Source: Microbulbifer litoralis
Lineage (GTDB): Bacteria > Pseudomonadota > Gammaproteobacteria > Pseudomonadales > Cellvibrionaceae
Direction: 5' to 3'
NCBI RefSeq assembly: GCF_023634065.1
Contig: NZ_JALKCV010000001.1
Coordinates: 310,001 to 374,000 of the forward strand
Length of the DNA: 64,000 bases
A model generated the notes under the pieces. The model worked only from the letters and a program-made list of their open reading frames with translations, was not told where the DNA came from and made no database searches. The number at the start of each line of letters is the position of its first letter. The first letter of the stretch is position 1. Made by a program: the position numbers and the translations under genes. Below, piece after piece: positions 16,210-38,337 of the stretch.

Positions 16210-17082
16210 AGATCACCTCGTTATGCTTATTGTCTCGTTTCATCAACATCGCTGGGCGGGGTGGCGCCCGGCACCGAAACGGAGACTACCACGGAGACGG
16301 CGCCGGAGGTGATTACCAGATTCCCCGGCCCGGTTCCCACTTTGCATTTCGAAAACTGGCACGGGCGCAACCCGCGCGGGAAACGGATGTTAGCATACAC
16401 TTACATCAGGCAGCTGCTTCCGGGCGCGACGCGGGGCGACTGTTCAGTCTCAGCCTTGTTGCATGGGGGCGGGAAGTGGGCAAGTGACAAGCGGGCTGGC
16501 GCATCAGTGCCGGGAAGGTGAACCGAATCAAAGCGTGGCCGATGCCAGGCTCCAGATCACACTCGACCGATGCCGGACCACTTATTCCTCCACCGGGTCC
16601 TCCACCGGGTCCTCCAACCTGGACGTCCAGCTCAGAGATTACCGACAACAACCTCGCCCAGCGCCGACAATATCCTGGAAACTCTCAAGCCGCTTTCGGC
16701 GTTGCCACAGCGAGCAACTACTCCCCCCTGCAGTTACAAGACTACAAGTAAAAACCCCAGCTCTACCCCAATAAGCCAGGACAGAAAGCTGAAAAAATGT
16801 ACAGCCAAAATTGGACAAGTGAACCACTTTGGCGGGATCAGAAGCCGCGTGCTTCTATCTACTGAGATCGCTCCGTAAGTGATTGACTTTTAAGGAGCAC
16901 TCAATAGGATCAATAGCCAAACAAGGAATAAAGCGGCCGGCGGCTTCGCCTTATATCTCTGTATAAAAATCAGGCAGGAAATTCAAATTTTGCTGATTGT
17001 TACCAGGTTTTAAGCTTTTTGAATTTCTTTCGGTTGTAGATAGAAGCTTGGGGGATATGCAGCGGTGGCTTTTGAATTAACT
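16210..17082. other. Intergenic region at the left edge of the cassette island; no gene seen
   Basis: No convincing coding region. It holds the promoter side of the sugar permease (16210-16430), a 12-bp direct repeat TCCTCCACCGGG present 2.6 times at 16586-16618, and a marked drop in GC after about 16780. From about 16910 the sequence looks like a degenerate attC (CCAAACAAGG... through AACTGTTAGGTG at 17081-17090). There is not enough room or open frame for an integron integrase. Confidence 0.6.
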
Positions 17083-17090
17083 GTTAGGTG
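17083..17090 (+). other. attC core (GTTAGGTG) at the 5' edge of the first cassette
   Basis: GTTAGGTG matches the integron core GTTRRRY and lies immediately before the barstar-like gene. The end of that same gene carries ACACCTAA (17374-17381), its reverse complement, which is what a circularised cassette junction predicts. The rest of the upstream attC is degenerate. Confidence 0.65.
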
Positions 17091-17093
17091 TGT

Positions 17094-17381
17094 ATGGATA
17101 CCATAATCATCGACTGCCAGGATGTCAGAGACGAGAGCGATTTCTGGCAATTATACATAGATATAGTGCGTCCTGAAGGTGCGGATTTCTTCGGTAGAAA
17201 CGCCTCTGCCTTCTTGGATGCGATTTCCGGGGGCGGGCCAGGGTGGCCCGGCGATGTGAAGTTGCTGTTCGTCCATGCCGAGTCTCTTTCGGCAATCAAT
17301 AGCGGTAGTCTCCTCCGCCGATTGCAAGAGATACAGCTCCATTCAAAGCGGGTTCGGGTGGAACTTGGAGCGGACACCTAA
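17094..17381 (+). CDS. Barstar-like ribonuclease inhibitor family protein (integron cassette)
   Basis: A 95-residue protein. The stretch DFFGRNASAFLDAISGGGPGWPG matches the conserved centre of the barstar family (FGRN-x-DAF-x-DAL-x-GG), which inhibits barnase-type ribonucleases by covering their active site. The N-terminus IIIDCQDVRDESDFWQLY also fits the first barstar helix. No ribonuclease gene is nearby. Orphan immunity or antitoxin-like genes are common integron cassette cargo, where they may protect against toxins of competitors. The start codon lies 11 bp after the GTTAGGTG core and the stop codon overlaps the cassette's own 3' core, so the gene fills the cassette completely. Confidence 0.75.
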   Translation: MDTIIIDCQDVRDESDFWQLYIDIVRPEGADFFGRNASAFLDAISGGGPGWPGDVKLLFVHAESLSAINSGSLLRRLQEIQLHSKRVRVELGADT

Positions 17382-17545
17382 TCGGGTAAGGGCGGGTGTT
17401 TAGCCCGTCCTCCCCACAACACCCTGCATGCGGGTCCGCACAGGGCGTTTCAATCAGAGTAGTGAAGCTTGATCCATCCGTCGCGCAGTGTCGCCAACCC
17501 GACCTTCTTCAGGTTGACGTTAAATTGTCATTTAACGGTGATCTT
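17382..17545 (-). mobile_element. Group II intron 3' remnant (maturase C-terminus plus domain V/VI)
   Basis: On the minus strand, 17526-17455 encodes NVNLKKVGLATLRDGWIKLH followed by YSD and a stop, resembling the extreme C-terminus of group II intron reverse transcriptases. Upstream of it the frame is broken by TGA. Downstream comes a hairpin-rich segment with TGCGGACCCGCATG (loop and inner stem) and GGGCGG/CCGCCC-type pairing, ending ACCCGATT, as at the 3' end of class C introns. The remnant abuts the ACACCTAA core of the barstar cassette. Class IIC-attC introns are known to insert into attC sites in the orientation opposite to the cassette genes, as seen here. The 5' part and most of the maturase are missing. 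Confidence 0.65.
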
Positions 17546-17665
17546 CCTACAGGGGACTCTCACACCATTAGTTCATGCCCATGCTGGGCGTACACAAGGC
17601 CAGGCACAGCGACGGCTTTTACGTTGCGGCTTCGCCTCCACTACAAAGCTTCGCGTGCTGGCGGC

Positions 17666-17674
17666 GTTAAGTGC
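17666..17674 (+). other. attC core (GTTAAGTGC) opening a cassette
   Basis: GTTAAGTGC precedes the 92-residue gene at 17677. The same cassette ends with GCACTTAAT (17948-17956), the reverse complement except for the last base. The attC arm to the left (about 17590-17665) is attached to the intron remnant. Confidence 0.75.
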
Positions 17675-17676
17675 TT

Positions 17677-17955
17677 ATGAACTACGAATCGGGTGAGCGA
17701 GTATTGTTGGGCGACACGGTCAGGTTTGATTCTGGTCCAGATCAATATGTATCGGCCAAAGTGGTAATGCTCGGTGAAGATTATTCTCACCTTCAATTGG
17801 AGCAAAAATTCCTAGATTGGGTTGTCGCAGACAAGGTTCTAGATAGTGAAGGGGTGTTGGTAGAGGTGGCCTCCGAAACAGGGCGCTATATGTTTACCAC
17901 TCTGTGCTGCGTAGAACTTATTCAGAGGTTGAGTGCTGGCTCAGAAGGCACTTAA
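17677..17955 (+). CDS. Hypothetical cassette protein, 92 aa
   Basis: A small soluble protein (MNYESGERVLLGDTVRF... ) rich in beta-type sequence. I do not recognise a specific family with certainty. The pattern 'GERVLLGDTVRFDSGPDQYVSAKVV...EGVLVE' resembles short SH3-like barrel domains found in cassette and immunity-type proteins. ATG 17677 is preferred to an in-frame GTG two codons upstream, which lies inside the attC core. The stop codon overlaps the 3' core GCACTTAAT. Base composition is AT-richer than the flanking chromosome. Confidence 0.7.
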   Translation: MNYESGERVLLGDTVRFDSGPDQYVSAKVVMLGEDYSHLQLEQKFLDWVVADKVLDSEGVLVEVASETGRYMFTTLCCVELIQRLSAGSEGT

Positions 17956-18000
17956 TAAGAAGGTGCGCGCGACGAGCCCGTGACCAGGGCGTTATGTGCC
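17948..18000 (+). other. attC recombination site between cassettes
   Basis: About 53 bp running from GCACTTAAT to GTTATGTGCC with an internal partly self-complementary GTGCGCGCG...GAGCCCGTG section. The left half belongs to the cassette ending here (complement of GTTAAGTGC at 17666) and the right half opens the next cassette (complement GCACATAAC at 18431). Confidence 0.8.
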
Positions 18001-18025
18001 AGAGTACTGAAGGAACATTATTCGT

Positions 18026-18424
18026 ATGAAAGGAAGCTGTTTGTGTGGTCAGGTTCAGTATCAAATAGAAAAGCTAGAAAGCCCAATTCAACATTGCTCC
18101 TGCAAAACGTGTAGAAAGGCGCATTCAGCTGCATTTAATACAGCTGCTGCTGTTTCAAAGAAGAGTTTTAGGTGGGTAAAGGGCGAGGATAAAATTTCAG
18201 GTTATGAATCTTCGCCTGGAAAAGTTCGGTACTTTTGCTCAAATTGCGGATCTCAGCTAATCGCTGAAAAAGAAGGAAGTCCAAATTACGTTCTTCGTGT
18301 AGCTACTTTAGATGATGATCCTGGGGTTAAGGCAGAGTTTGGTATCTGGAAATCCCATGAGATTTCTTGGTTGGAGTACGGTGACCATATTCACGCGCAC
18401 CCAGAGTGGCAACCAGGCCGGTAA
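18026..18424 (+). CDS. GFA-domain (glutathione-dependent formaldehyde-activating enzyme-like) protein
   Basis: A 132-residue zinc protein of the GFA/CENP-V family. The full set of metal ligands is visible: C-x-C in GSCLCGQVQYQI near the N-terminus, CSCKTCRKAHSAAF at about residues 29-42 and YFCSNCGSQL at about residues 74-83, then the usual HI-x-x-HP near the end (DHIHAHPEW). Family members bind zinc and were first linked to glutathione-formaldehyde adduct formation; most relatives have no proven reaction. It is an integron cassette gene: its cassette opens with GTTATGTGC (17991) and closes with GCACATAAC (18431), an exact complementary pair. The ribosome-binding site is GAAGGAAC. Confidence 0.88.
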   Translation: MKGSCLCGQVQYQIEKLESPIQHCSCKTCRKAHSAAFNTAAAVSKKSFRWVKGEDKISGYESSPGKVRYFCSNCGSQLIAEKEGSPNYVLRVATLDDDPGVKAEFGIWKSHEISWLEYGDHIHAHPEWQPGR

Positions 18425-18430
18425 TCCGTA

Positions 18431-18480
18431 GCACATAACAAACAGCGGCAGAGCGACAGCCAACGCTGGGCGTTCAGGCT
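18431..18480 (+). other. attC recombination site after the GFA cassette
   Basis: GCACATAAC at the left, AACAGCGGCAGAGCGACAGC in the middle and GCGTTCAGGC at the right, about 50 bp. Its central part is identical to the attC at 19401-19448. The paired CAGCG/CGCTG segments provide the stem of the bottom-strand hairpin recognised by integron integrases. Confidence 0.85.
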
Positions 18481-18647
18481 GTAGAAAAACTCGAGTAATT
18501 CTGGAGCATGTTAATTTCTCGTGCGGAGAGCGCCCTGAAATGCTTTTCGTCATGGAGAACAGGTGCAGAATTCACGTAGAAGCGCGATTTTGATTAAAAT
18601 ATGAACAGCAAGGAGGGGCTGGAGCTTTTCTACAGCCTCGTTAGATG
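18472..18647 (+). other. Gene-less cassette or long attC with 17-bp inverted repeat
   Basis: Between core GTTCAGGC (18472) and core GTTAGATG (18640) there is no open frame. AGGCTGTAGAAAAACTC (18476-18492) and GAGCTTTTCTACAGCCT (18622-18638) are inverted repeats with one mismatch, so the whole stretch can fold into one large hairpin. It is either an ORF-less cassette or an extended attC. Confidence 0.55.
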
Positions 18648-19397
18648 AAATCAAACCAAACCATGTACTGGACTGATGAAAAGAAAGAAGTAGCAAAGGC
18701 TTTCGCCATAGCTCCAGCAATTCCGATAGGTATTGCGAGCCTACTAGCGCTGCCTGCAGGGATATTCGTCTTCATCATTGGAGCGCCTGTCGCCTATGCT
18801 TGTGCTGCCATCATTGGTATTCCCCTTTACCTTATTCTAAATAAATTTAGAATCTACGGCTGGCCATATTTTGCTCTGGGCGGCGCCTTATGTGCCACTC
18901 CAGGAGTTTTGCTGTTTACGAAGCACAACGTGCCTATAGTTTATAGCCTTCAATCGATTAGCAGTTTTACTCTTATTGGTGCCGTAGGTGGCTTCGCTTT
19001 TTGGTGGCTTTATCCTAGAAAAAAATGCAATGAAAGCAGCGTTACCAATCTGACAGGGATATTTTTATTGGCTGTGATCGGTAGTTTTTTGACCTATGTT
19101 TACATGCTTGGCGAGTTCCACTATATCGATGGGAAAACTCTGTCAGTTAAACACCCTTTTGTAAGCCAATCCGATATAGTAGTTAATATCGAAGCTGATG
19201 GACAAATTGTAGAGGCTCGGATACCAAAGGGAGTGCCCTATCGAAAAAATTGTAAAATAGGTGTGGTTGTCTGGCGCGAATTTTTTAGCCATAAGAAAGT
19301 GTACTCATTAAGCCACTATCCTGACTATCCGCAGGCACATCACTACCAGTGGTTAACGAAAGAGGCTCAAAATGGCATTAGTAAGTCATGCAACTAA
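18645..19397 (+). CDS. Hypothetical multi-pass membrane protein (cassette)
   Basis: A 250-residue protein with about five hydrophobic helices in the first 165 residues (for example AIAPAIPIGIASLLALPAG, GAPVAYACAAIIGIPLYLIL, YFALGGALCATPGVLLF, and one near GIFLLAVIGSFLTYVYML) and a C-terminal soluble domain of about 80 residues containing WREFFSHKKVYSLSHYPDYP. No family is recognised. The ATG overlaps the attC core (GTTAGATG), leaving no leader, and the cassette closes with CATCTAAC (19401), the exact complement of its opening. Translation must rely on a ribosome-binding site upstream of the junction (AAGGAGGGG at 18610-18618 is rather far away). Confidence 0.8.
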   Translation: MKSNQTMYWTDEKKEVAKAFAIAPAIPIGIASLLALPAGIFVFIIGAPVAYACAAIIGIPLYLILNKFRIYGWPYFALGGALCATPGVLLFTKHNVPIVYSLQSISSFTLIGAVGGFAFWWLYPRKKCNESSVTNLTGIFLLAVIGSFLTYVYMLGEFHYIDGKTLSVKHPFVSQSDIVVNIEADGQIVEARIPKGVPYRKNCKIGVVVWREFFSHKKVYSLSHYPDYPQAHHYQWLTKEAQNGISKSCN

Positions 19398-19400
19398 TAT

Positions 19401-19448
19401 CATCTAACAAACAGCGGCAGAGCGACAGCCAACGCTAAGCGTTAAATT
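19401..19448 (+). other. attC recombination site
   Basis: CATCTAAC to GCGTTAAATT, about 48 bp. CATCTAAC complements GTTAGATG at the start of the membrane-protein cassette, and GTTAAATTAT complements ATAATTTAAC at the end of the next cassette. The 30-odd central bases are the same as in the attC at 18431-18480, showing that the two sites share recent ancestry. Confidence 0.88.
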
Positions 19449-19868
19449 ATGATGCCGAGATTCGTACTTATCGCTAGTATTTTTATGCTCTCTGGCTGTG
19501 CAACCAGAGTAACTTGGGATGGATTAACTCCCTCAAAGAGCTACCAAATTATTTTTAAAAATCAAGACGCAGATCCCGTTTCTGGAGTAAGTGCCAGTTG
19601 TAACGGAAATGGAATATGGCCAAGTGATAAAATTGCCCAAGAAATAAATGAAGCCCATGAAAAATCTGACTCAAGTGGATTACTAAAGTTATCGCATAGT
19701 GGGTACGAGGTGGGCGGGACCTATAAAAAACTCGGGCCATTTACCTGGGGAGGTAGCGAGCAATGGAAGGTGTATTGCACATTCATACATCGTGGTTCAA
19801 TTATCGAGTCCGGTAAATTGGCTAAGTTCAATCAGCCAGTGGAAATCACAGTGCCAAAAATAATTTAA
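19449..19868 (+). CDS. Hypothetical lipoprotein (cassette)
   Basis: A 139-residue secreted protein with a clear lipoprotein signal: MMPRFVLIASIFMLSGCATR, where LSGC is the lipobox and C17 would be lipidated. The mature part has two further cysteines (SASCNGNGIW and VYCTFI) that could form a disulfide. No family is recognised. The start codon lies 8 bp inside the cassette, directly after the GTTAAATT core, and the stop codon overlaps the 3' core ATAATTTAAC. The cassette's attC to the right is interrupted by an IS630-family element. Confidence 0.82.
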   Translation: MMPRFVLIASIFMLSGCATRVTWDGLTPSKSYQIIFKNQDADPVSGVSASCNGNGIWPSDKIAQEINEAHEKSDSSGLLKLSHSGYEVGGTYKKLGPFTWGGSEQWKVYCTFIHRGSIIESGKLAKFNQPVEITVPKII

Positions 19869-19939
19869 CGAAATAAGGATAGATCACACGCGAAAGACGC
19901 ACATTGGATAGCCTACGCTACGCTTCGGCTGCCGGTTAC
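19860..19939 (+). other. attC left part, interrupted by IS630 insertion
   Basis: Begins with ATAATTTAAC, complementary to GTTAAATTAT at 19441, and continues through GACGCACATTGGATAGCC and GGCTGCCGGTTAC up to the insertion sequence. The right part of the site (about 21086-21100, GTGTTACAAG) lies beyond the element. Confidence 0.65.
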
Positions 19940-21087
19940 TAGTGGTCCATGCGGAAAATAGTGTAACTTATGGGCAAGTGAGCGTATCATCTATTTATGC
20001 GCACACCAAAACCTTTTCAAATTTCCAGCGAAACCACGGACGCCCTGAATGAACTATGCCGTTCGACGACTCTGCCGCATGGGCAGATTATGCGGGCGAA
20101 GATTATTCTGCAGCTCAGCGAAGGCATGACTCCCACTGAAGTCGCCGAAGCGCAACGAACTTCGCCCAAGACAGTTCACCGTTGGCGAAATCGGTTTGAG
20201 GAGGAAGGTCTTAATGGGTTACTTGAGCGTCCTCGTAGCGGCCGACCAACTGTACTCGATAAAGAGGTCGTAGATCGGGTACTGTACCTGACAACAAAAC
20301 GTATTCCTGAAGAAGCTACACATTGGAGCGTTGAGTTGATGGCCAAATACGCGGAAATAACACCTTGGCAAGTTCGGCAGATCTGGGCAGCCGCAGATTT
20401 ACGTCCACACCGATTAAAAACGTTCAAGATCAGCAATGATCCAGAGTTCTCTGATAAGGTCGTAGACATCGTGGGTTTGTATATGAATCCACCAGAAAAC
20501 GCCATTATTCTAAGTGTTGATGAAAAAACACAGATTCAAGCTTTGGATCGAACGCAACCAGGTCTCCCGCTCAATCCAAGCCGAATTGGCAGCCGGACGC
20601 ACGATTATAAAAGGCACGGAACGGCCAGTTTGTACGCAGCTTTTAATACTTTGACGGGCAAAGTGATTGGGAAAGTGGCAGCGCGGACGAACAGCAAGGA
20701 ATTCTTATCCTTCTTGAAGTTGATTGATCGACGTACAAATTCGGATAAGGATCTCCACATCATTTTGGACAATCTCAGCGCGCACAAAACAAAAGAAATT
20801 CGGGAATGGGTCGATACTCATCCTCGCATCCATTTACACTTCACTCCAACCAGCTCTTCTTGCCTGAATGCTGTGGAGGGCTGGTTTTCTCAATTGGAGC
20901 GTCGAGCATTGTATCGTGGAGTATTCACCAGTGTTTCAGACTTAAAGGTGAAGCTGGAGAACTTTATCAAAGCCCATAACGCGGAGAGCGCAAAGCCGTT
21001 CAAATGGACAAAGCCCGCCAGCCAAATTTTGGCTTCGGTCGAACGCGCAAAACAATCGTTACAGAATTAACCGCATGGCCCACTAGA
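19938..21087 (+). mobile_element. IS630-family insertion sequence
   Basis: About 1.15 kb with 16-bp terminal inverted repeats: CTAGTGGTCCATGCGG at 19938 and CCGCATGGCCCACTAG at 21071-21086, one mismatch apart. The TA dinucleotides at the outer ends are the typical duplicated IS630/Tc1 target. It carries one intact transposase gene and has landed in the attC of the lipoprotein cassette. The same terminal repeat bounds a small non-autonomous element at 53406-53568. Confidence 0.88.
19997..21070 (+). CDS. IS630-family transposase
   Basis: A 357-residue DDE transposase. The N-terminal DNA-binding part has a helix-turn-helix (MTPTEVAEAQRTSPKTVHRW, about residues 39-58) followed by the linker RPRSGRPTVLD. 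The catalytic triad is visible as D in LSVDEKTQIQAL (about residue 175), D in HIILDNLSAHKT (about residue 257) and E in LNAVEGWFSQLERRAL (about residue 293), as in IS630/Tc1-mariner enzymes that insert at TA. The frame is complete with no disruption, so the element may be active. It is transcribed in the same direction as the cassettes. Confidence 0.93.
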   Translation: MRTPKPFQISSETTDALNELCRSTTLPHGQIMRAKIILQLSEGMTPTEVAEAQRTSPKTVHRWRNRFEEEGLNGLLERPRSGRPTVLDKEVVDRVLYLTTKRIPEEATHWSVELMAKYAEITPWQVRQIWAAADLRPHRLKTFKISNDPEFSDKVVDIVGLYMNPPENAIILSVDEKTQIQALDRTQPGLPLNPSRIGSRTHDYKRHGTASLYAAFNTLTGKVIGKVAARTNSKEFLSFLKLIDRRTNSDKDLHIILDNLSAHKTKEIREWVDTHPRIHLHFTPTSSSCLNAVEGWFSQLERRALYRGVFTSVSDLKVKLENFIKAHNAESAKPFKWTKPASQILASVERAKQSLQN

Positions 21088-21236
21088 GTGTTACAAGCCG
21101 CATACAAGGAGATTTAAATTTTCCTACTGACATTAAAAAAGCAGCAGTTGCGTTAATTGTTTCATGCTTCTCGACGCTAACTGCTGTCTATTTTGATGGA
21201 ATAGAATTTGAAGAGGCGGGCTTTGGAGACCCATTT

Positions 21237-21455
21237 ATGCTCGGAATTAACGCAGTTTGGGTTCTAGCTATAGCCTGGATAATTTGGGATTTGCTTAAGG
21301 GGAAAAACATAAGAGTTACATTTTTTGTGATTGGCGCCATTATGCTGGCATCATTGTTTTGGGATCTTGTCGAGTTCGGCTTTGGTATTTCTCAAATATT
21401 CTATGCAGTGGAAATTATTATGTTTTCATTGGCTTATTTCTTGATCAGCACATGA
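21237..21455 (+). CDS. Hypothetical small membrane protein (cassette), start uncertain
   Basis: The frame encodes at least three hydrophobic helices. From the first ATG at 21237 the product is 72 residues (NAVWVLAIAWIIWDLLKG, then two more helices), but the frame stays open upstream and would add a convincing extra helix (KKAAVALIVSCFSTLTAVYF at about 21135-21194). An AAGGAG site at 21106-21111 sits just before that extension, yet no ATG, GTG or TTG follows it in frame, so the original start may have been lost by mutation. The cassette opens with GTTACAAG beside the IS630 right end. No family is recognised. Confidence 0.6.
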   Translation: MLGINAVWVLAIAWIIWDLLKGKNIRVTFFVIGAIMLASLFWDLVEFGFGISQIFYAVEIIMFSLAYFLIST

Positions 21456-21536
21456 AAGAGCAAAAATTGGTATGTTGCAAAGAGTTTATAAAAAGGCCTG
21501 GCTTCACCGCTCCCACTGGCAACGTTATAGTGCACC

Positions 21537-21836
21537 ATGAATCAGCCAAGTATAATTAAAATCGCAGTTTATGCAGGTATCGGAGCAGTACTTGTTGGAC
21601 TAATTGTATTTATCGTAAATTGGACTGTGTGGGGTGGAGGCATGCCTGGGTATAGATTTTTTCTATTCCCCGGAAACTTGACGCTCATTTACATCTGGCA
21701 TCCTTTGTTTACTGAAGAAATAGATTTCTGGCCAAAACTCGCTATTCACATGCTAGGCCAATTTACTGTAACTTCGCTTTTTGTCACATTAATTGCTACT
21801 GGATTAAGGAGGCTGCCGCTTGCCCCTGCCCTATAA
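21537..21836 (+). CDS. Hypothetical membrane protein, 99 aa (cassette)
   Basis: A 99-residue protein with two or three hydrophobic helices (IKIAVYAGIGAVLVGLIVFI near residues 5-25, and AIHMLGQFTVTSLFVTLIATGL near the C-terminus). No family is recognised. The ATG follows the core GTTATAGTGC (21524) by a few bases, and the stop codon overlaps GCCCTATAAC (21828), which complements the opening core at nine of ten positions. It therefore fills its cassette entirely and has no upstream leader. Confidence 0.7.
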   Translation: MNQPSIIKIAVYAGIGAVLVGLIVFIVNWTVWGGGMPGYRFFLFPGNLTLIYIWHPLFTEEIDFWPKLAIHMLGQFTVTSLFVTLIATGLRRLPLAPAL

Positions 21837-21929
21837 CCAGACCATGTTGACGGACGGCCTACGCAACGCGCTTCTTCTGCCAGTTTCTGCGTCCTCGTTC
21901 TCTGTCGAGTGTGGTCGAGTTAACTAAAG
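21828..21929 (+). other. attC recombination site, long type (~100 bp)
   Basis: Runs from GCCCTATAAC to GTTAACTAAAG. It contains an interior AACGCGCTTCTTCTGCC...GTTTCTGCGTCC segment. The left end complements the opening core of the preceding cassette. The right end opens the last recognisable cassette, whose own 3' core I could not find. Confidence 0.6.
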
Positions 21930-21945
21930 AGATGGGCTTAAAAGC

Positions 21946-22206
21946 ATGATTACTTTCGGATCAGTACGAGAATTATTTGAGCAGCGAGCAACTTCTTGCC
22001 CACATTGTGATCATGTAGTTAAACATAACGAGATTGTCTGCCCAGGATGCGAGACGGTCTACTCAAAGGAAGAAAGAGCATTTATTGAGAGTCAAGCTAA
22101 TCGTACATTCAAATTTGGTATAGCTATTGGTTTGGTATTTATTCCTATATTTTTAGCAGCATTTATCTTCGCTTTCGTTATCTTAAATAATTTGGATTAT
22201 TTATGA
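21946..22206 (+). CDS. Zinc-ribbon membrane protein, 86 aa (cassette)
   Basis: An 86-residue protein with a four-cysteine zinc ribbon (CPHCDHVVKHNEIVCPGC, about residues 18-36) and one C-terminal transmembrane helix (FGIAIGLVFIPIFLAAFIFAFVIL). Such zinc-ribbon plus helix proteins are common but functionally unassigned. It overlaps the next gene by 4 bp (ATGA), so the two are translationally coupled and the unit is a two-gene cassette, which is less usual for integrons. Confidence 0.75.
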   Translation: MITFGSVRELFEQRATSCPHCDHVVKHNEIVCPGCETVYSKEERAFIESQANRTFKFGIAIGLVFIPIFLAAFIFAFVILNNLDYL

Positions 22207-22637
22207 AGAATCTGAATATTTTTATCATTCTTCTGACATTTAGTATTTCTTCAAGTGTTGGAGCAGGAACTACTTCCTCAATCGACATCGAAAAGGCAGT
22301 AAAATCTGTAAATAAAGCACAAAACAGAGCAATGCTTGCCACTGCATCTATCAATGACCTGGATACATTGTTTGATATGTATACGGATGATTTTGTTTAT
22401 GTGCATAAAATTTATGGCGGCACCTACACAAGAGAAGAACTTTATGACAATGCCGCTAAGTATATTACCACCAAACATTACAAGCTGACTGAAGGCAGAT
22501 ATAAAGTACTTAGGATTTTACCAGGGTCAGACGCTGCAGCGGTAGAAAGGCTAGAGGTTGCCAGCGGAAATATTCACCTATCAGTTTTTGAGTTTGAAGG
22601 CGATAAGGTTTCAAAAATCATTGAATACTGGGAATGA
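22203..22637 (+). CDS. Secreted NTF2-like (DUF4440/SnoaL-type) protein
   Basis: A 144-residue protein with a signal peptide (MKNLNIFIILLTFSISSSVGAG, cleavage near residue 22) and an NTF2-like fold: AMLATASINDLDTLFDMYTDDFVYVH followed by YTREELYDNA and paired C-terminal strands ending KIIEYWE. DUF4440/SnoaL-like proteins form cone-shaped pockets; a few act as isomerases or cyclases but most secreted ones are uncharacterised. It is coupled to the zinc-ribbon gene by the ATGA overlap. It is the last gene of the AT-rich cassette island; no closing attC is evident after it. Confidence 0.75.
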   Translation: MKNLNIFIILLTFSISSSVGAGTTSSIDIEKAVKSVNKAQNRAMLATASINDLDTLFDMYTDDFVYVHKIYGGTYTREELYDNAAKYITTKHYKLTEGRYKVLRILPGSDAAAVERLEVASGNIHLSVFEFEGDKVSKIIEYWE

Positions 22638-22860
22638 TAATTTTCTGCTTCCGTCATTGATATCACTCAAGTAAAAATCACATATTTAGACGGAATTTTT
22701 CGACGGTTCCGAGAAAATCGGGATGTTCATCAACATCAACTGACGCAAACAACCGCATCATGCCACAGACTCTGGCGAATAACGTAAGCCCATGAAGACC
22801 AGAAAAACCAAATATACTACTCCTTATAAACTGTAGATGTAAAAAACGGGAGCAAAACTG

Positions 22861-23476
22861 ATGAGCAACACGGCAACCCACGACCCATCGAACGGCTACG
22901 ATGCCGCCGCCGCAGAGTTCATGCGCCACCGTGAGCAGTCGAGCGTCGGTACCGCGACGGTTCGGATATGGGCCCGTGCCCTCCCCAAAAATGGTACCGT
23001 TCTGGATCTCGGCTGTGGATCGGGAGTGCCGATCTCAACGGTATTATCCGAGGAGGGGCTTGCCGTGTATGGCATAGACGCTTCGGAAAGTCTCATTGCC
23101 GCATTTCGCCGCCACTTACCCCATGCACAGGTTGCCTGTGAGGCTATCGAGGACTCGCGCTTCTTCGACGTTCGATGGCGTGATCGCGATAGGCGTGATG
23201 TTTCTATTGCCTGCGAAAGTACAACGGGACCTCATTTTCAAGGCCGCCGCGGCATTGAACCCGGGCGGCCGGTTTCTGTTCACCTCCCCGGCACAGACAT
23301 GTGTATGGGCAGACGTGTTGACGGGCAGAAGATCACACTCCCTGGGAGCCGAGGAGTACAGAGCCGCATTGTCGGATGCCGGGCTCTCACAGGTTGACGA
23401 GTACCGGGATGAAGGCGGGAACCACTACTACGATACCCACCTTTCACCTTCCCCGGGCGCAATGCAGCAGCAGTGA
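22861..23476 (+). pseudogene. Class I SAM-dependent methyltransferase, frameshifted
   Basis: Two overlapping frames together encode one methyltransferase. The first frame (22861 to about 23165) has the SAM motif TVLDLGCGSGVPIS and YGIDASESLIAAF. The second frame (about 23165-23476) continues with FDGVIAIGVMFLLP and LNPGGRFLFTSP, the later methyltransferase motifs, ending at TGA 23476. The switch occurs at TTCGACGTTCGATGGCG, where a near-duplicated TTCGACG/TTCGATG suggests a 7-bp duplication (or any +1 change) shifted the frame. The substrate is unknown. If the frame is not restored in vivo the gene is inactive; a sequencing error is the alternative. Confidence 0.75.
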
Positions 23477-29923: not shown

Positions 29924-30000
29924 GTCCCGAGTCCCGAGTCCCGAGTCCCGAGTCCCGAGTCCCGAGTCCCGAGTCCCGAGTCCCGAGTCCCGAGTCCCGG
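29924..30000 (-). repeat. Tandem 7-bp repeat array (GGGACTC), 11 copies
   Basis: Eleven nearly perfect copies of GTCCCGA (minus strand TCGGGAC) lie between ybeD and dacA, starting 4 bp after the dacA stop codon and reading GGGACTC in the dacA sense direction. It is the longest of three such arrays in the window. Confidence 0.95.
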
Positions 30001-30004
30001 CAGT

Positions 30005-31153
30005 TTACTGAAAGAATCCCATGATAAAGCGCTTCAGGGCATCCCACATACGCTTGAAGAAACCGGCCTTCTCGACATCTTCGGCGGCGACGGCCTTGAT
30101 GTCGGCGACGGTTTCACCGTCCAGGGTGACGACCACCTTGCCCACCGGCTGGCCCTTCTCCAGCGGCGCTTCGAGTTCGCCGTCGATGATCAGGTCCGCC
30201 TTGATGCTGTCCTCACCGCCGCGGGGAATGGTGACATAGACATCCTCGGCCACGGCGATACCCACTTCCGGCGCCTTGCCGCCCCAGACGCGCTCGGTCT
30301 GCAGTACGTCGCTGCTGCTGTAGACCTTGTGGGTCTGGTAGTAGCGGAAGCCGTAGGCCAGCAGTTTCTGGGATTCTGCGGCACGATTTTCATCACTTTT
30401 GGTGCCTACCACAACGGAAATCAGGCGCATGCCGCGCTTCACGGCGGAGGCCACCAGGCAGTAGCCGGCTTCTTCGGTGTGGCCGGTCTTGATGCCGTCC
30501 ACGGCCGGATCGCGCCACAGCAGGCGGTTGCGGTTTGGCTGGTTGATGCCGGCGTAGCTGAAATACTTCTCGGAGTAGATATCGTAGTGATCCGGGTGGT
30601 CTGCGATCACTGCGCGGGCGAGAGTGCCCAGGTCGCGCGCGGTGGTCAGGTGCCCATCCGCCGGCCAGCCGGTGGCGTTGACAAAGTGGGTGTTCTCCAT
30701 GCCCAACAGTTCCGCCTGCTGGTTCATGACCTCGGCAAAGACGGACTCACTGCCGGAGACATACTCCGCCAGCGCGATACTGGCATCGTTGCCGGATTGC
30801 ACGATCACACCGCGCAGCAGGTCGATGACCGGCACCTTGTCGCCGACTTTGACGAACATCTTGGAGCCGCCCTTTTTCCAGGCCTTCTCCGAGATGCGCA
30901 CCGGGTCGTCCTCCTTGATGCTGCCATTCTCGATCTCCTCGGAGACGATGTAGGCAGTCATCATCTTGGTCAGGCTCGCCGGCGGAATCTGCTCGTCGGC
31001 GTTGTGCTCCACCAGCACCTGGCCGGTGTGGGCATCGAGCAAAAGATAGGCTGTGGCGGCCAGTTGCGGCGGCGCCGGAATCAGCGGCTTTTCGGCGTGC
31101 GCGAGTGCGGTACCGAGTAACAGGATTAAGCAGGCAGCGATGCGTTTGATCAT
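30005..31153 (-). CDS. dacA: D-alanyl-D-alanine carboxypeptidase (PBP5/6 type)
   Basis: A 382-residue periplasmic penicillin-binding protein that trims the terminal D-alanine of peptidoglycan stem peptides. It has a signal peptide ending ALAHA, the three active-site motifs SLTK (about residue 61), SGN (about residue 121) and KTG (in GIKTGHTEE), and a C-terminal amphipathic anchor (FFKRMWDALKRFIMGFF) that holds it to the inner membrane. It sits between rlpA and ybeD in the cell-elongation cluster. A 7-bp repeat array follows the stop. Confidence 0.96.
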   Translation of the reverse strand: MIKRIAACLILLLGTALAHAEKPLIPAPPQLAATAYLLLDAHTGQVLVEHNADEQIPPASLTKMMTAYIVSEEIENGSIKEDDPVRISEKAWKKGGSKMFVKVGDKVPVIDLLRGVIVQSGNDASIALAEYVSGSESVFAEVMNQQAELLGMENTHFVNATGWPADGHLTTARDLGTLARAVIADHPDHYDIYSEKYFSYAGINQPNRNRLLWRDPAVDGIKTGHTEEAGYCLVASAVKRGMRLISVVVGTKSDENRAAESQKLLAYGFRYYQTHKVYSSSDVLQTERVWGGKAPEVGIAVAEDVYVTIPRGGEDSIKADLIIDGELEAPLEKGQPVGKVVVTLDGETVADIKAVAAEDVEKAGFFKRMWDALKRFIMGFFQ

Positions 31154-31210
31154 GGGAGAACTTCTCTTTTCCTCGTGTTCTTTAATTTCCTGACAGCGGA
31201 CGCTGTTCGA

Positions 31211-32074
31211 TTACTCGTAAACCACTTGCGGTTCGCCCAGACGGTTCTCCTGGACCGATTCGCGCGCCGCAACCAACGCGCGCTGCTGACTCAACGGCCC
31301 GATACGCACGCGGTAGAGCCTCGCCCCGCCACGCGCCACAGAACTGACGGATACAGGATAGTCGACCAGCGCCGCAACCTGTGCCCGTATCTGCTCGGCC
31401 TTGTCGGCGTTGCCGTAGGCGCCGACCTGCAGGAACGTATTGGCGGGCAGTTTGAAGCTCGCATCCTGCGCCAGCACCTCGCGCGCGGCAACATCTTTTT
31501 CCACCGCCAGGGTTTCATTGGCCGACGGCAGGGTATCCGGGTCCAGGGCCACCACCTCGACCCGCGCCACGCCCTTGTTGATATACCCCAGCTTCTGCGC
31601 GGCAGTGTAACTCAAATCGATGATGCGTCCGGGCACGAAGGGGCCGCGGTCATTGACACGGACGATCACACTGCGGCCGTTTTCCAGGTTGGTGACCTTG
31701 GCGTAGCTGGGCAATGGCAGGGTTTTATGCGCTGCCGACATGGCGTACATATTGTAGACCTCGCCATTGGCGGTGCGCCTTCCGTGAAATTTTGTGCCAT
31801 ACCAGGAGGCATGCCCTTTCTCGCGATAGCCTTTGACGCCCTTGCGTACACGGTAGGTGACGCCGTCGACCCGGTAGGGGGACTTGTTGCCGGCCTTGCC
31901 GATGGGTTCGCGTACCGGGGTAGGCTCGGGCGTAGCCAGCATATCCACCGGCTGCGGCGGACCGCTGTCTTTCACCGGATCCGGCGTTTTTGCCGGCCTG
32001 CCCGGCTGGCCGCTACAGGCCGCCAGCACCAGAGCGGCCAATGCCACTCCCAGTCGCGCTTTGCACTGAAACAT
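31211..32074 (-). CDS. rlpA: RlpA family septal-ring lytic transglycosylase
   Basis: A 287-residue outer-membrane lipoprotein. The lipobox is LAACSGQ near residue 19; then a proline-rich linker, the double-psi beta-barrel domain (GHASWYGTKFHGRRTANGEVYNM, with HKTLPLPS and VRVNDRGPFVPGRIIDLS), and a C-terminal SPOR domain (about residues 210-287, FLQVGAYGNADKAEQ) that binds denuded peptidoglycan at division sites. In Pseudomonas, RlpA cleaves glycan strands lacking stem peptides. Its position between mltB and dacA is the conserved order. Confidence 0.94.
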   Translation of the reverse strand: MFQCKARLGVALAALVLAACSGQPGRPAKTPDPVKDSGPPQPVDMLATPEPTPVREPIGKAGNKSPYRVDGVTYRVRKGVKGYREKGHASWYGTKFHGRRTANGEVYNMYAMSAAHKTLPLPSYAKVTNLENGRSVIVRVNDRGPFVPGRIIDLSYTAAQKLGYINKGVARVEVVALDPDTLPSANETLAVEKDVAAREVLAQDASFKLPANTFLQVGAYGNADKAEQIRAQVAALVDYPVSVSSVARGGARLYRVRIGPLSQQRALVAARESVQENRLGEPQVVYE

Positions 32075-32246
32075 GATTCCCCCCGGCGTGCGGCGAAATT
32101 ACCGCCCCCAAGCCACTTTATTGGTAGATGTTTGATTAAATTGAATTGGTTCGATTAGTGGTTTTGTTTTTGGTTCCCCGGGTGCTTCGGCCGCCCCCTC
32201 TCCCACAGGGAGTGGGGGCAATACTTCCCAATTGGGGCTCGCTCAA

Positions 32247-32309
32247 GTCCCGAGTCCCGAGTCCCGAGTCCCGAGTCCCGAGTCCCGAGTCCCGAGTCCC
32301 GAGTCCCGA
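32247..32309 (-). repeat. Tandem 7-bp repeat array (GGGACTC), 9 copies
   Basis: Nine perfect copies of GTCCCGA on the plus strand, starting 2 bp after the mltB stop codon and reading GGGACTC in the mltB sense direction. Same unit as at 10221-10261 and 29924-30000. Confidence 0.95.
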
Positions 32310-32311
32310 TA

Positions 32312-33322
32312 TTATGACCTGCCGCCCCGCGCCTTGACGATCTCCTGGGACAGGTCGTAGGCCGCCATGGCGTACAGGCGGCTGCGATTGTAGCGGGTGA
32401 TGACCGAGAAGTTGTTCAACCCGATCCAGTACTGTTTGCCATTCTCCGTCTGCAGGGAGAATACATTGGCAGGCATATCCGGCGACACCTGGGCGGTGGT
32501 GGTGAAGCCCTTTTCCGCCAGTTCGCCGACGGTCCATTTGGGATCGAGGGAATCGTTGACCACGGTCATGTCCGCATTGGGGCGCGGCGTCGCCAGCACC
32601 GCTACCGGCTCGCCGCGTTTCCAGCCGTGTTCGGCGAAGTAGTTGGCCACACTGCCGATGGCGTCTTCGGTGTCCTCCCAGATATCCACGTGGCCGTCGC
32701 CGTTGAAATCCACCGCATAGGCGCGGTAGCTGGATGGCATGAACTGGCCGTAGCCCATGGCGCCGGCATAGGAGCCCTTCAGCGCAGTGGGATCCACGCC
32801 CTCGTCGCGGGTCAGCAGCAGGTAGTTTTCCAGTTCCTTGGTAAAGAACTTGGAGCGGCGGGGATAGTTGAAGGCCAGGGTCGCCAGTGCATCCAGCACG
32901 CGGTAGCCGCCCATGTTGCCGCCGTAGCGGGTCTCGATGCCGATGATGGCGACGATCATCTCCGCCGGTACGCCGTATTTTTCCGAGGCTTCCGCCAGGG
33001 CCTGGGCATTCTTGTCCCAGAAATCCACACCGCCGGCGATGCTGGCCGGGGTCAGGAACAGGTTGCGGTACTCATACCAGGGCTTGGCCTTCTCCGCGGG
33101 GCGCTTGATCGCCTTGAGGATGGAGTCCTTGCGCTTGGCCTCGCGCATCAGCACCATCATGTCATCGCGGTCGAAGTCGTGTTTCTCCACCATATAATCG
33201 ACGAAGATTTTGGCATTGGCATTGTCGCCGTGGCCGGTTTCCTGAGCGCAGGCGGCGAGCATCATGCCCATTCCAGCCAAAAGTCCCGTGGTCCACTTCA
33301 AAACAACCGCTCCTGTTCTCAT
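32312..33322 (-). CDS. mltB: Membrane-bound lytic murein transglycosylase B
   Basis: A 336-residue lipoprotein enzyme that cleaves glycan strands to 1,6-anhydro products. The N-terminal signal carries a lipobox (MLAACAQ, cysteine near residue 25). The catalytic glutamate is in IVAIIGIETRYGGNMG (about residue 121), followed by DEGVDPTALKGSYAGAMGYG and FMPSSYRAYAVDFNGDGHVD, all standard for MltB. It lies between rodA and rlpA. Confidence 0.95.
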   Translation of the reverse strand: MRTGAVVLKWTTGLLAGMGMMLAACAQETGHGDNANAKIFVDYMVEKHDFDRDDMMVLMREAKRKDSILKAIKRPAEKAKPWYEYRNLFLTPASIAGGVDFWDKNAQALAEASEKYGVPAEMIVAIIGIETRYGGNMGGYRVLDALATLAFNYPRRSKFFTKELENYLLLTRDEGVDPTALKGSYAGAMGYGQFMPSSYRAYAVDFNGDGHVDIWEDTEDAIGSVANYFAEHGWKRGEPVAVLATPRPNADMTVVNDSLDPKWTVGELAEKGFTTTAQVSPDMPANVFSLQTENGKQYWIGLNNFSVITRYNRSRLYAMAAYDLSQEIVKARGGRS

Positions 33323-33372
33323 ATCCTACTTCTCTACGTCCAAGTTCTTATACTGCCCGAATGGCGGCTCCC

Positions 33373-34500
33373 CTAGAAGGATACCCGGCGCCGCTCGGTG
33401 CCTATGGCCATCAGGATGCCGAAACCCGCCATCAGGGTGACGACAGAGGTGCCGCCGTGGCTGACCAGCGGCAGGGGCACCCCCACCACCGGCAGCAGGC
33501 CACTCACCATCCCGATGTTCACAAACACATAGACAAAAAATGTCAGCGTAATACTCCCCGCCAGCAGGCGACCGAATACATGCTGGGCCATAAAACTAAT
33601 ATAGATGCCCCGGGCAATGATCAGCACATACAGCAGCAGCAGCAACAGCGCACCGCGCAGGCCCCACTCCTCCGACAGCACCGCGATAATAAAATCCGTG
33701 TGACTTTCAGGCAAAAAATCCAGTTGCGACTGGGTGCCCTGCATGTAGCCCTTGCCGTAGAGGCCGCCGGAACCGATCGCCGCCTTGGACTGGAAGATAT
33801 TCCAGCCGGCGCCGAGGCGATCCGCTTCCGGGTCGAACAGGGTCAGGACACGCTGGCGCTGGTAGTCGCGCATGCCCCACTCCCACATCGGGTAGGCGGC
33901 GGCGGCCAGGGCCAGCAGGGCCCCGCCGATCAGCTTCCAGCTGAGCCCGGCCAGATAGAGGGCGAAAATCCCCGATGCCGCGATCAGGATAGCGGTGCCG
34001 AGATCCGGTTGGCGCACGATCAGTGCCGCCGGCACCCCGACTATCGCCAGGGCGCCCAGCACCGTGAAGAAGGACGGCGGCAGGTTGCGCTTGTGCAGGA
34101 AGGCCGCCACCGACATGGGGACCGCCAGTTTCAGTGCCTCGGACGGCTGGAAGCGGAAACCGCCGATCTCCAGCCAGCGCTGCGCGCCCTTGGCGCCAAC
34201 CCCGAAGAACAGCACCGCCACCAGCAGCCCGCAACCGCCGACATAGAGCCACGGCGACCAGCGCCGGTACATATCCAGCGGAATCTGCGCCGCCACCAGC
34301 ATCACTACCAGCGCCAGGCCGAGGAATACCGACTGGCGGCGCACATAGTGCACTTCACCGCCGGAGGCACTGTAGAGCACCACCAGCCCCACACCGGCCA
34401 GCACCAGCAACAGTACCAGCAACGGCACATCGATATGCCAGCGCCGGGAGAAACTCACCGGCCGGCTGAGGCCGCCGTGGGAATCCGGCAGCCGGTGCAT
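33373..34500 (-). CDS. rodA: Rod shape-determining protein RodA (peptidoglycan glycosyltransferase)
   Basis: A 375-residue SEDS-family membrane protein that polymerises peptidoglycan during elongation with its partner PBP2. Ten helices are visible, with the conserved RRWSPWLY, GWKR-like QRWLEIGGFRFQPSEALKLAVP block, LIVRQPDLGTAILIAASG and the late loop LPLVSHGGTSVVT. I chose ATG 34500 (MHRLPDSHGG); an alternative GTG six codons upstream at 34518 overlaps the end of mrdA. Either way it is translationally linked to mrdA upstream. Confidence 0.94.
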   Translation of the reverse strand: MHRLPDSHGGLSRPVSFSRRWHIDVPLLVLLLVLAGVGLVVLYSASGGEVHYVRRQSVFLGLALVVMLVAAQIPLDMYRRWSPWLYVGGCGLLVAVLFFGVGAKGAQRWLEIGGFRFQPSEALKLAVPMSVAAFLHKRNLPPSFFTVLGALAIVGVPAALIVRQPDLGTAILIAASGIFALYLAGLSWKLIGGALLALAAAAYPMWEWGMRDYQRQRVLTLFDPEADRLGAGWNIFQSKAAIGSGGLYGKGYMQGTQSQLDFLPESHTDFIIAVLSEEWGLRGALLLLLLYVLIIARGIYISFMAQHVFGRLLAGSITLTFFVYVFVNIGMVSGLLPVVGVPLPLVSHGGTSVVTLMAGFGILMAIGTERRRVSF

Positions 34501-34510
34501 GTAATCGCGG

Positions 34511-36403
34511 CTAGCCACGTGTCCCCTCCCCGTTGCTGTCTGTATTGCCCGCGTCGGCGGTCTCCTCCAGCGGCCGCGACATCCAGTCGCGGAACACTTC
34601 CCGCGCCACCGGCTGGGCCACCTCGCTACTGTGCTCGCCGTTCTCCACCAGCACCGACACTGCGATCTGCGGATCGTCCAGCGGCGCGAAGGCCACGAAC
34701 AGGGCGTGGTCGCGGTGGCGCTCCTTGAGCGCCTCCGAGTCGTACCGTTCGCCCTGGGCGATACCCACCACCTGGGCGGTGCCGGTCTTGCCGGCCACCT
34801 TGAAATCCAGCCCCTTGCCGACGGCCTTGCCGGTACCGCGAATGTTGTAGACCACCTGTTCCATACCCTTGAAGACCAGGTCCCAGTGCTCCGGCCTGGC
34901 TTCCACATGGTGCAGGATTTCCGGCGGCTGTTCCCGGCCGCCCACTGCCTTCACCACCTGTGGCCGGTAGTGGGTGCCGCGGTTGGCGATAGTGGCGGTC
35001 ATCACCGCCAGTTGCAGCGGCGTGGCCAGTACGAACCCCTGCCCCAGCACCGCGTTGAGGCTGTCGCCGGGGAACCAGGGCAGGCCGCGGGCGCCGCGTT
35101 TCCACTCCCGCGATGGAAAGAGACCGGGGCGCTCCACCGGCAGGTCGATACCGGTCTTGGCGCCGAGGCCGAAGCGGGTGGCGACATCGTGCATCTGGTC
35201 GATATTCCAGCGCGCCGCCATATCGTAGAAATAGACGTCACAGCTCTCGGTAATCGCCTGGATCAGGTCCACGTTCTTGCCGTGCCCCCAGCGCTTCCAG
35301 TCGCGGTAGCGGCGGTCGTCGTTGGGCAACACGTAGTAGCCGGGGTCGTTGACGGTGTATTCGGCGTCGACCACACCGTCGGCAAGGCCGCCCAGGGCCA
35401 TCATCGGTTTCAGGGTCGAACCGGCCGGGTACTGCCCCTGCAGGGCGCGGTTGAACAGCGGCACGTCGAGGGAATCGGACAGTGCGCGGTAGTCCTGGAA
35501 GCTGATCCCGGTGACGAACAGGTTGGGATCGAACGAGGGCTTACTGACAAACGCCAGCACACCGCCGGTTTTCACATCGATGGCCACGACAGAGCCGCGG
35601 TTGTCGCCCAGTGTCTCTGTCGCCACCTTCTGCAGGCGCGCGTCCAGGTTCAGGGTCAGGCTCTGCCCGGGTTTGGGGTCGTGGCGCTCCAGCACGCGGA
35701 GCACCCGCCCGCGGGCGTTGGTTTCCACATTCTCGTAACCCACCTCGCCCAGCAGCCGGTCCTCATAGGAGCGTTCCAGCCCCACCTTGCCGATACTCTG
35801 GGTGCCCCGGTAGCGGCGCACGTCTTCCTCGGTAAAGCGCCCAAGCTCGCGCTCGTTGATACGCCCCACATAGCCGACGCTGTGGGCAAACAGTTTTTCC
35901 AGCGGGTAGTAGCGCACCAGTTCCGCCTCCACCGATACGCCCGGCAGGCGGAATTCGTTCACGCTGATGCGGGCGATCTCCTCCTCGCTGAGGCGAAAGC
36001 GCAGTGGTATCGGTTCGAACGGGCGGCGGCGCTGCATGCGCTGGCGGAATTTCTGCACGTCGGCGTCGTCGAGCTGGATCAGGCGGCCGATCAGTTCCAG
36101 GGTCGCGTCCATGTCCTGCACCCGCTCGTGCACGATCGACAGGTTGTAGCTGGGGCGGTTGTCCGCCAGCAGGGTGCCGTTGCGGTCGTAGATGAGGCCG
36201 CGGGTGGGCGGTACCGGGCGCACCTGGATGCGGTTTTCGTCGGACTGGGTGCGGTAGTCGTCGTAGTTGACCACCTGCAGGTTGTAGAAACGCGCCACCA
36301 GCACCCCCAGCAATACCGCCACCCCGACGAGCGCCACCAGCATGCGGTTGCGAAACAGCCGCAGTTCGGAGTGGTGATCTTTGAGGTGCAGGTCCTGGGG
36401 CAT
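34511..36403 (-). CDS. mrdA: Penicillin-binding protein 2 (MrdA)
   Basis: A 630-residue class B PBP, the transpeptidase partner of RodA in cell elongation. It has a short cytoplasmic N-terminus, one membrane anchor (about residues 20-42), a pedestal domain with RGLIYDRNGTLLADN, and a transpeptidase domain with the active-site serine in YPAGSTLKPMMALGG (about residue 330), SCDVYFYDMA as the second motif and KTGTAQ near residue 545. The acidic tail DAGNTDSNGEG is short. It forms an operon with rodA. Confidence 0.96.
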   Translation of the reverse strand: MPQDLHLKDHHSELRLFRNRMLVALVGVAVLLGVLVARFYNLQVVNYDDYRTQSDENRIQVRPVPPTRGLIYDRNGTLLADNRPSYNLSIVHERVQDMDATLELIGRLIQLDDADVQKFRQRMQRRRPFEPIPLRFRLSEEEIARISVNEFRLPGVSVEAELVRYYPLEKLFAHSVGYVGRINERELGRFTEEDVRRYRGTQSIGKVGLERSYEDRLLGEVGYENVETNARGRVLRVLERHDPKPGQSLTLNLDARLQKVATETLGDNRGSVVAIDVKTGGVLAFVSKPSFDPNLFVTGISFQDYRALSDSLDVPLFNRALQGQYPAGSTLKPMMALGGLADGVVDAEYTVNDPGYYVLPNDDRRYRDWKRWGHGKNVDLIQAITESCDVYFYDMAARWNIDQMHDVATRFGLGAKTGIDLPVERPGLFPSREWKRGARGLPWFPGDSLNAVLGQGFVLATPLQLAVMTATIANRGTHYRPQVVKAVGGREQPPEILHHVEARPEHWDLVFKGMEQVVYNIRGTGKAVGKGLDFKVAGKTGTAQVVGIAQGERYDSEALKERHRDHALFVAFAPLDDPQIAVSVLVENGEHSSEVAQPVAREVFRDWMSRPLEETADAGNTDSNGEGTRG

Positions 36404-36454
36404 CGGGTGATTCGGTGACTGGCGCGTATTTAATTGACTACTGAGTGTACAGCT

Positions 36455-36614
36455 TTAATGCGGAATGATGAATGCGGAATGCGGAATACGCGAACCAGCG
36501 ACATACCTGGGTCACAAATTGTGGCCGCGCATTCACCTGCTCGCTGGCAAGAAACGCCGGTCGCGGCCCTTGAGCCGTTCCACTGACATGGCATTCATCA
36601 TCCCGTATTCATCA
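36455..36614. repeat. Intergenic ATGCGGAAT repeats with inverted partner
   Basis: Between mrdA and rlmH the sequence ATGCGGAATGATG is followed by two more ATGCGGAAT-like units (36460-36489), and an inverted, degenerate version (GCATTCATCATCCCGTATTC) lies at 36590-36609. It looks like a small decayed palindromic element; no gene is present. Confidence 0.45.
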
Positions 36615-37088
36615 CTTGTGGTAGGGGTGCCCCGCCAGCAGCGTCCAGGCGCGGTAGAGCTGTTCCGCCAGTACCACCCGCACCAGCGGGTGCGGCAGGG
36701 TCAGCGGCGACAGGGACCAGCGCTGCTGCGCCCGCGCCAGGCAGTCCGGCGCCAGGCCGTCGGGCCCGCCGATCAGCAGCGCCACATTGTCGCCCTGCAT
36801 CCGCCAGTGATCGAGTTGCTGCGACAATTGCCCGGTGCCCCAGGGTTTGCCCTGTACATCCAGGGCCACCACATGGTCGCGCGGCGCCAGCGCCGCCAGC
36901 ATGGCCTCGCCCTCTTTCTGGCGGGCCTTCTCGACCAGGGCCGGCGAGTTCTTCTGGCCGCGGTTGCCGAGCGGAATTTCCACCATCTCCAGCGCGATTT
37001 CCCGCGGCAGGCGTTTGGCGTACTCGGCGTAGCCCTGCTGCACCCAGCCGGGCATCCTGCCGCCGGCGGCGAGGATACGGATCTTCAC
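36612..37088 (-). CDS. rlmH: 23S rRNA pseudouridine-1915 N3-methyltransferase RlmH
   Basis: A 158-residue SPOUT methyltransferase that modifies pseudouridine 1915 in helix 69 of 23S rRNA on assembled ribosomes. The knot region is seen as [15 protein letters not shown] (about residues 102-116) and the C-terminal [23 protein letters not shown]. The N-terminus [20 protein letters not shown] fits the family. It follows rsfS by 10 bp, the standard rsfS-rlmH pairing. Confidence 0.95.
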
Positions 37089-37098
37089 AGCGGGCGGC

Positions 37099-38166: not shown

Positions 38167-38199
38167 TTCCAGGCTCCGCCCGGCTTTGATCTGCTCCGC

Positions 38200-38305
38200 G
38201 CCGAGAGCGAGGGCCCTTTCCGGGACACGCTGTGAATACATCCCTGTACGCTCGTAATCGACGTCCCTGTCTCATACGGTCCCGGAAAGGGCCCTCGCTC
38301 TCGGC
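38200..38305. repeat. Large palindromic intergenic repeat, copy A
   Basis: Perfect 27-bp arms (38200-38226 and 38279-38305, containing GAGGGCCCTTTCCGGGAC and its complement) enclose a 52-bp core with GTGAATACATCCCTG and TCGTAATCGACG. It lies just beyond the proA 3' end. Copies B and C are at 45962-46080 and 61319-61458; the core is shared but the arms differ. Confidence 0.85.
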
Positions 38306-38337
38306 ACTCCAGGGCAATCCCCAACCTATTGGCACCT

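Follow-up and report, generated by a model that had tools for sequence, protein, structure and literature searches.

The window analysed here is a stretch of 64,000 nucleotides (64 kb) from the genome of Microbulbifer litoralis (contig NZ_JALKCV010000001.1, positions 310,001 to 374,000). Positions 16836-22640 of the window are an integron cassette array, which starts at an attachment site (attI) that has no integrase gene (intI) beside it. Comparison across the genus makes it quite probable that this orphan site is one of many dispersed, inherited attI platforms that are stocked with cassettes in trans. Each orphan attI would be a copy of an integron leader, comprising promoter and attI. Cassette circles would enter it at G^TT through recombination of attI with attC, performed in trans by an integron integrase whose gene lies at another place in the chromosome, and the promoter of the leader would drive the first cassettes. 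A good share of these platforms in the genus appear to lie at inherited chromosomal places. The sequence evidence pointing to this comprises leader homology, the attI core, the attC structure, shared flanks, a change of sequence at the junction, cassettes shared between integrase-linked and orphan arrays, and an empty site; the action of IntI in trans is suggested by the comparison of genomes.

A reading of the sequence alone had proposed an AT-rich island of cassettes with self-complementary ends and no local integrase. The G+C content is indeed 41-52% across 17-23 kb as opposed to mostly 58-73% in the rest of the window, and all six pairs of complementary ends quoted in that reading are present in the sequence. 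Cassettes start at 17083, 17666, 17991, 18640, 19441 and 21524. The end complementary to the first start, at 17374-17380, is divided by an insert; the others are found at 17948, 18431, 19401, 19860 and 21828. The start of cassette 1, GTTAGGTGT, complements ACACCTAAC when the insert is omitted. A simple scan for pairing R''/R' motifs did not distinguish the island from chance, as GC-rich coding DNA scored equally high. Because such chance pairs made the motif scan insufficient, a covariance model of attC was built from the arms of 15 sites of the genus, none of them from the genome of the window. These were selected from 20 sites, five being dropped with arms outside the fixed register. A full-length MAFFT alignment of the 20 sites had misplaced the arms and was replaced by the arm model. 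Covariation in the training set was 0.614 versus 0.137 after shuffling, a count favoured by the fact that rows were partly chosen for fitting arms. The pairing of R''/R' and L''/L' with a bulge, as expected of attC, is present in these sites, and independent support for it comes from the matches of the model in the window and elsewhere.

Searched over the whole window at E<=10, the model gave three matches, all in the island and on the plus strand (Table 1); attC matches in such a search were what the sequence-only reading had named as confirmation. An unfiltered scan of 16800-22900 added two weak sites; it also gave a loop-less minus-strand match over attI (12.0 bits) and did not list the match at 17586. 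Neither the filtered scan of the 64 kb nor the unfiltered scan of the island detected an attC site past 21531. The array thus has a degenerate or uncertain end. In a genome-wide attC search, two matches, on contigs C15 and C2, were found among the 150 of 3905 candidates that were scored; as not even the sites of the window are listed there, these matches do not indicate that attC is absent from other places.

The region ahead of 17083 was not part of the sequence-only reading, nor were the intron remnant, the IS630 element and the unit without an open reading frame (ORF) at 18472-18639 described below. It holds a leader that is 74% identical (E 7.4e-16) to the intI-attI intergenic region of an integron on contig C14 of the same genome. 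The leader matches a hidden Markov model (HMM) of intI-linked leaders of the genus with E 1.4e-26 and terminates in the attI core CTTTTGAATTAACT followed by GTT. A third copy of the leader lies on contig C5 with no intI match upstream. By comparison, the site is an attI with cassettes inserted at GTT. The window leader also contains a predicted sigma-70-like promoter resembling the cassette promoter Pc. Promoter scores of at least 9 occur in 28 of 80 leaders versus 10.5% of shuffled ones; the C5 leader scores only 7. In a minority of leaders, an inverted repeat GCTTCTATCTAC...GTAGATAGAAGC with the two parts about 180 bp apart was noted, e.g. around 16836-17047.

No intI match is found within 2.5 kb upstream of the window attI core, so that the array does not form a complete integron with an adjacent intI. 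With three attC matches at E<=0.024, two weaker ones and no intI nearby, it conforms to a cluster of attC sites lacking an integron integrase (CALIN; at least two attC sites), which is what the sequence-only reading had called it. This name describes the array without an adjacent integrase correctly, yet it is incomplete. With an attI leader at its head, the array is more than a cluster of attC sites, namely an integron platform from which intI is missing.

That reading had also asked for a search of the genome for an integron integrase. The only long match to TIGR02249 lies on contig C14 and is broken by a change of frame into two parts of 234.9 and 100.9 bits, both under the family cut-off of 265; a further intI remnant lies on C10. 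Because the only long intI match is frame-split and attC sites are interrupted, the window array probably has little or no activity left and is frozen. Accordingly, the comparison of genomes supports the earlier proposal, recruitment or shuffling of cassettes in trans, well for the genus but not for this genome today. Two observations on these integrase loci may be added. On C14, a short element (L007, about 16665-16830) with CTAGTGG ends like those of the IS630 element interrupts the attI core. On C10, positions 30000-39500 (L009) are AT-rich and probably contain a second cassette array next to the degraded intI remnant, with two strong attC matches and an array start, TAACTGTTAGAG, that by eye differs from the main attI.

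In the genus, an integron integrase above the family cut-off was found in 42 of 48 genomes, the genome of the window not being one of them. The attI core (at most one mismatch) was found at 81 sites in 30 of the 48 genomes; the reversed pattern had a single match in all 48. Defining a site as linked when an integrase match of more than 200 aa lies upstream of the core, 14 sites are intI-linked, two have intI fragments and 65 have no intI, one of the latter with just 37 bp of upstream sequence. The distance from intI to the core is 292-301 bp in 13 of the 14 linked sites and 413 bp in the other. The 27 non-linked sites of ten single-contig genomes are at least 52 kb away from every listed full-length intI. 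Closed genomes G064 and G033 carry seven and six non-linked cores, respectively, far from the listed full-length integrase genes. The counts of attI cores are lower bounds because diverged sites were missed; the C14 attI of the window's own genome, too, escaped the count owing to its interrupted core.

An HMM of the 14 linked leaders was compared with 66 of the 67 non-linked sites. It matched in the last 300 bp at 50 of them and at none of 66 shuffled sequences; one orphan site had an additional match farther upstream. The left flanks of the non-linked sites fall into 41 groups, among which are 15 orphan groups of two to six sites sharing a flank, and 13 of these unite different genomes only. 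Another comparison concerns a core-gene locus present in all 48 genomes. Of the 21 genomes displayed, G033, G022, G068 and G016 have leader plus core after the gene. Diverged leaders, missed by the core count, were recognised by eye in G018, G012, G011 and G030, and in the remaining 13 no leader was seen within the roughly 330 bp viewed. In none of the 48 genomes does a listed full-length intI lie within 250 kb of this locus on the same contig. It was also observed by eye that several orphan leaders, in several genomes, start some 20-35 bp past a terminator-like hairpin of the host gene.

The first cassette ends in the complement of its own start in 44 of 65 orphan and 10 of 13 linked arrays, versus 396 of 2293 control pairings; this comparison used 78 of the 81 sites, three with less than 300 bp downstream being left out. 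When the attC model was run on 64 loci, all 49 matches, distributed over 28 loci, lay downstream of attI in cassette orientation, six of them being training sites. For 18 pairs of sites, which we selected from the flank groups and which are not independent as sites recur, the identity was 0.72-0.97 in the host flank and 0.52-0.99 in the leader. One pair (G068_C40) is uninterpretable because of a contig edge. In the 400 bp past attI, 16 of the 17 interpretable pairs drop to 0.43-0.49, which is the level of random pairs (0.470 +/- 0.017). The pair G011/G018, for instance, has 0.97 in the flank, 0.99 in the leader and 0.48 past attI. Linked and orphan arrays also share cassettes: in closed genome G027 the first cassette of a linked and of an orphan array are 97.7% identical over 399 bp, and the linked array of G060 and the orphan array of G063 are 95% identical across 160 bp.

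The island of the window is itself polymorphic between related genomes, a point that the sequence-only reading had wanted checked. The transporter gene neighbouring it is 90% identical in Microbulbifer halophilus, and on this ground the genus compared here is probably Microbulbifer. M. halophilus lacks everything from 16363 to about 23.7 kb; there, the gap between transporter and transaldolase is about 0.3 kb and represents the empty site. Together with the attC matches and the complementarity of cassette starts and ends, this bears out a cassette array without a local integrase.

Several results weigh against platforms stocked in trans. Sixteen of the 66 orphan sites have no leader match beyond the 17-nt core, so that some cores may be chance occurrences or diverged. 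Two of the 15 flank groups each contain two sites of one genome, and the flank there may be a repeat. The own-start comparison failed in 24 of 78 arrays, and its control rate of 17% is not low. The pair G003/G064 retains its first cassette (0.86), and some syntenic sites have common DNA farther downstream. The attI variants are only weakly linked to the lineages of IntI: mapped on the IntI tree, the variants require three changes, and 22-26 of 500 shuffles are as low. As to the window itself, about 470 bp between the ancestral flank and the leader have no match in M. halophilus, and the genome as assembled has no intact intI. Finally, a stretch upstream of some orphan leaders resembles a LexA box, suggesting loss of intI at those loci.

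The last point would fit an ordinary relic, i. e. a complete integron that gained its cassettes in cis and then lost intI, with no action in trans. The decay of the window array, with its intron remnant, its IS630 element and its weak attC sites, agrees with this as well. On the other hand, sites with a shared left flank have no full-length intI upstream and nevertheless carry different first cassettes; one flank, for example, occurs in six genomes, none of which has an intI match within 2.5 kb, and five different first cassettes were found among the six. The nearly identical G011 and G018 sites diverge directly past attI, and the core-gene locus carries a leader in several species while no listed full-length intI is near it. 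We regard the relic as an improbable explanation.

It is also conceivable that the leader is carried by a mobile element of its own, similar to a transposon or a miniature inverted-repeat transposable element (MITE), which spread the attI sites, and that the cassettes followed. The large number of left-flank contexts (41 groups) speaks for this, as do several leaders that begin 228-234 bp ahead of the core, in several cases soon after a terminator-like stretch, and the repeat GCTTCTATCTAC...GTAGATAGAAGC, which is at least 8 nt long in 15 of 80 leaders versus 5.6% of cross pairings. Yet most leaders have only a short form of this repeat or none, and neither a target duplication nor a transposase was identified. 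We consider a mobile leader rather unlikely; since it concerns the origin of the sites, it would be compatible with stocking in trans. Insertion of cassettes at fortuitous chromosomal attG sites instead of attI is known to occur (PMC12444791), but according to the same paper such insertions are widely spread over numerous loci, and here a leader homologous to intI-linked leaders lies ahead of 50 of 66 orphan cores. This makes attG insertion a highly implausible account of the array.

Table 1. Features of the cassette array and its leader in the 64-kb window
Feature	Positions	Strand	Remarks
attI leader (GATCAG...), 247 bp	16836..17082	+	homologous to the C14 intI-attI intergenic region and to other leaders of the genus
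Sigma-70-like (Pc-like) promoter, predicted	16883..16910	+	TTGACT-N16-TAGGAT, about 186 bp ahead of the attI core
attI core CTTTTGAATTAACTGTT	17069..17085	+	probable crossover G^TT (17083); sequences of the genus diverge past GTT
Cassette 1 up to the insert	17083..17380	+	ORF 17094-17381, barstar-like, Pfam PF01337 E 3.5e-5
Group II intron remnant, 213 nt	17381..17593	-	domain V/VI retained; Rfam RF00029, 44 bits
Remainder of attC1	17594..17673	+	attC model 17586-17673, 25.9 bits, E 1.9e-4
Cassette 2, 91-94 aa, no family	17666..17990	+	attC2 17948-17998, weak, 11.6 bits (unfiltered scan)
Cassette 3, GFA-domain protein 18026-18424	17991..18471	+	PF04828 E 2.1e-25; attC3 18431-18480, 18.2 bits, E 0.024
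Cassette-like unit lacking an ORF, bounded by a terminal inverted repeat	18472..18639	+	flanked by GCGTT and CGTTA
Cassette 4, 250-aa hydrophobic protein, no family	18640..19440	+	attC4 19400-19448, 18.5 bits, E 0.02
Cassette 5, 139-aa lipoprotein-like ORF	19441..19938	+	presumed attC region interrupted by the insertion sequence; no attC match
IS630-family insertion sequence	19939..21086	+	transposase 19997-21070, NF033545 E 5.2e-81; ends CTAGTGG...CCACTAG
Cassette 6 remnant, hydrophobic ORF	21087..21523	+	attC-like 21484-21531, very weak, 8.1 bits (unfiltered scan)
Cassette 7, hydrophobic protein of 99 aa, terminating in GCCCTATAAC	21524..21918	+	no attC match
Last unit, zinc-ribbon-like 86-aa and SnoaL-like 144-aa ORFs	21919..22640	+	both under Pfam cut-offs; no terminal attC detected

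Two insertions interrupt the array. The group II intron remnant sits in R'' of attC1, at TTGT/T of the bottom strand and opposite to the cassettes, which is the placement of group IIC-attC introns (site rule in PMC7923331). It shares with them orientation, position and the retained domains V and VI but differs in being a remnant too short for an intron protein. The second insertion belongs to the IS630 family by its DDE transposase and lies where the attC of cassette 5 is presumed to be.

The ORF-less unit, 165 bp with a 17-bp terminal inverted repeat, also occurs in loci L099, L084, L085, L196 and L310. It is present in nine of the 48 genomes with up to 14 matches per genome, and no plasmid match to it was found. 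Partial matches excluded, 30 of 34 distinct copies have cassette borders, 29 of these reading GTTC-unit-CGTT, and one copy stands in tandem with another. A MITE with CGTT duplication was considered and is disfavoured by these borders, by the constant orientation at clear borders and by the tandem copy. The unit is probably an ORF-less cassette.

Beyond the array, at 22861-23476, a methyltransferase-like ORF was recognised by eye; it is absent from the M. halophilus site, and its match to PADLOC mad2 is weak (E 1e-7).

Integrons typically have one attI near the integrase, and CALINs have been proposed to be degraded integrons (PMC9024848). CALINs as such, their mobilisation in trans and their conserved positions have already been published (PMC12444791, PMC9668308), with seven conserved places in Xanthomonas (PMC12444791). 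The arrays described here are like CALINs in consisting of attC-bounded cassettes without a neighbouring intI. They differ in that a conserved attI leader, which includes a promoter-like element, stands at their head, and copies of attI at CALINs are not described in the excerpts of this literature. With the sedentary chromosomal integron, in which intI, attI and array follow each other, they share leader, attI core, attC structure and promoter-like element, but the orphan sites have no intI and several platforms occur per chromosome. Cassettes of the Delta-attI type in mobile integrons likewise have attI in an unusual place, where it is reported to be functional (PMC12901181); there, however, part of an attI site forms the end of a cassette, whereas here whole leaders head chromosomal arrays. 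No description of several intI-less attI leaders in one chromosome was found in the abstracts, passages and listings retrieved from open-access PMC. According to the paper on IntegronFinder 2.0 (PMC9024848), little has been described of attI in integrons other than class 1, and the program does not detect such sites. This would explain why such platforms have been overlooked, and they may be overlooked elsewhere too.

If attI platforms are dispersed and receive their cassettes in trans, some of the CALINs would be working expression sites. Cassettes could then adjoin several promoters at once, and the model that relates cassette order to expression would change. As the genus provides natural replicate sites, the action in trans is directly testable. 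A likely picture for the genus is that of a chromosome-wide integron, in which one or a few integrases would serve many inherited, promoter-bearing attI platforms and cassettes would be stocked and expressed at several loci.

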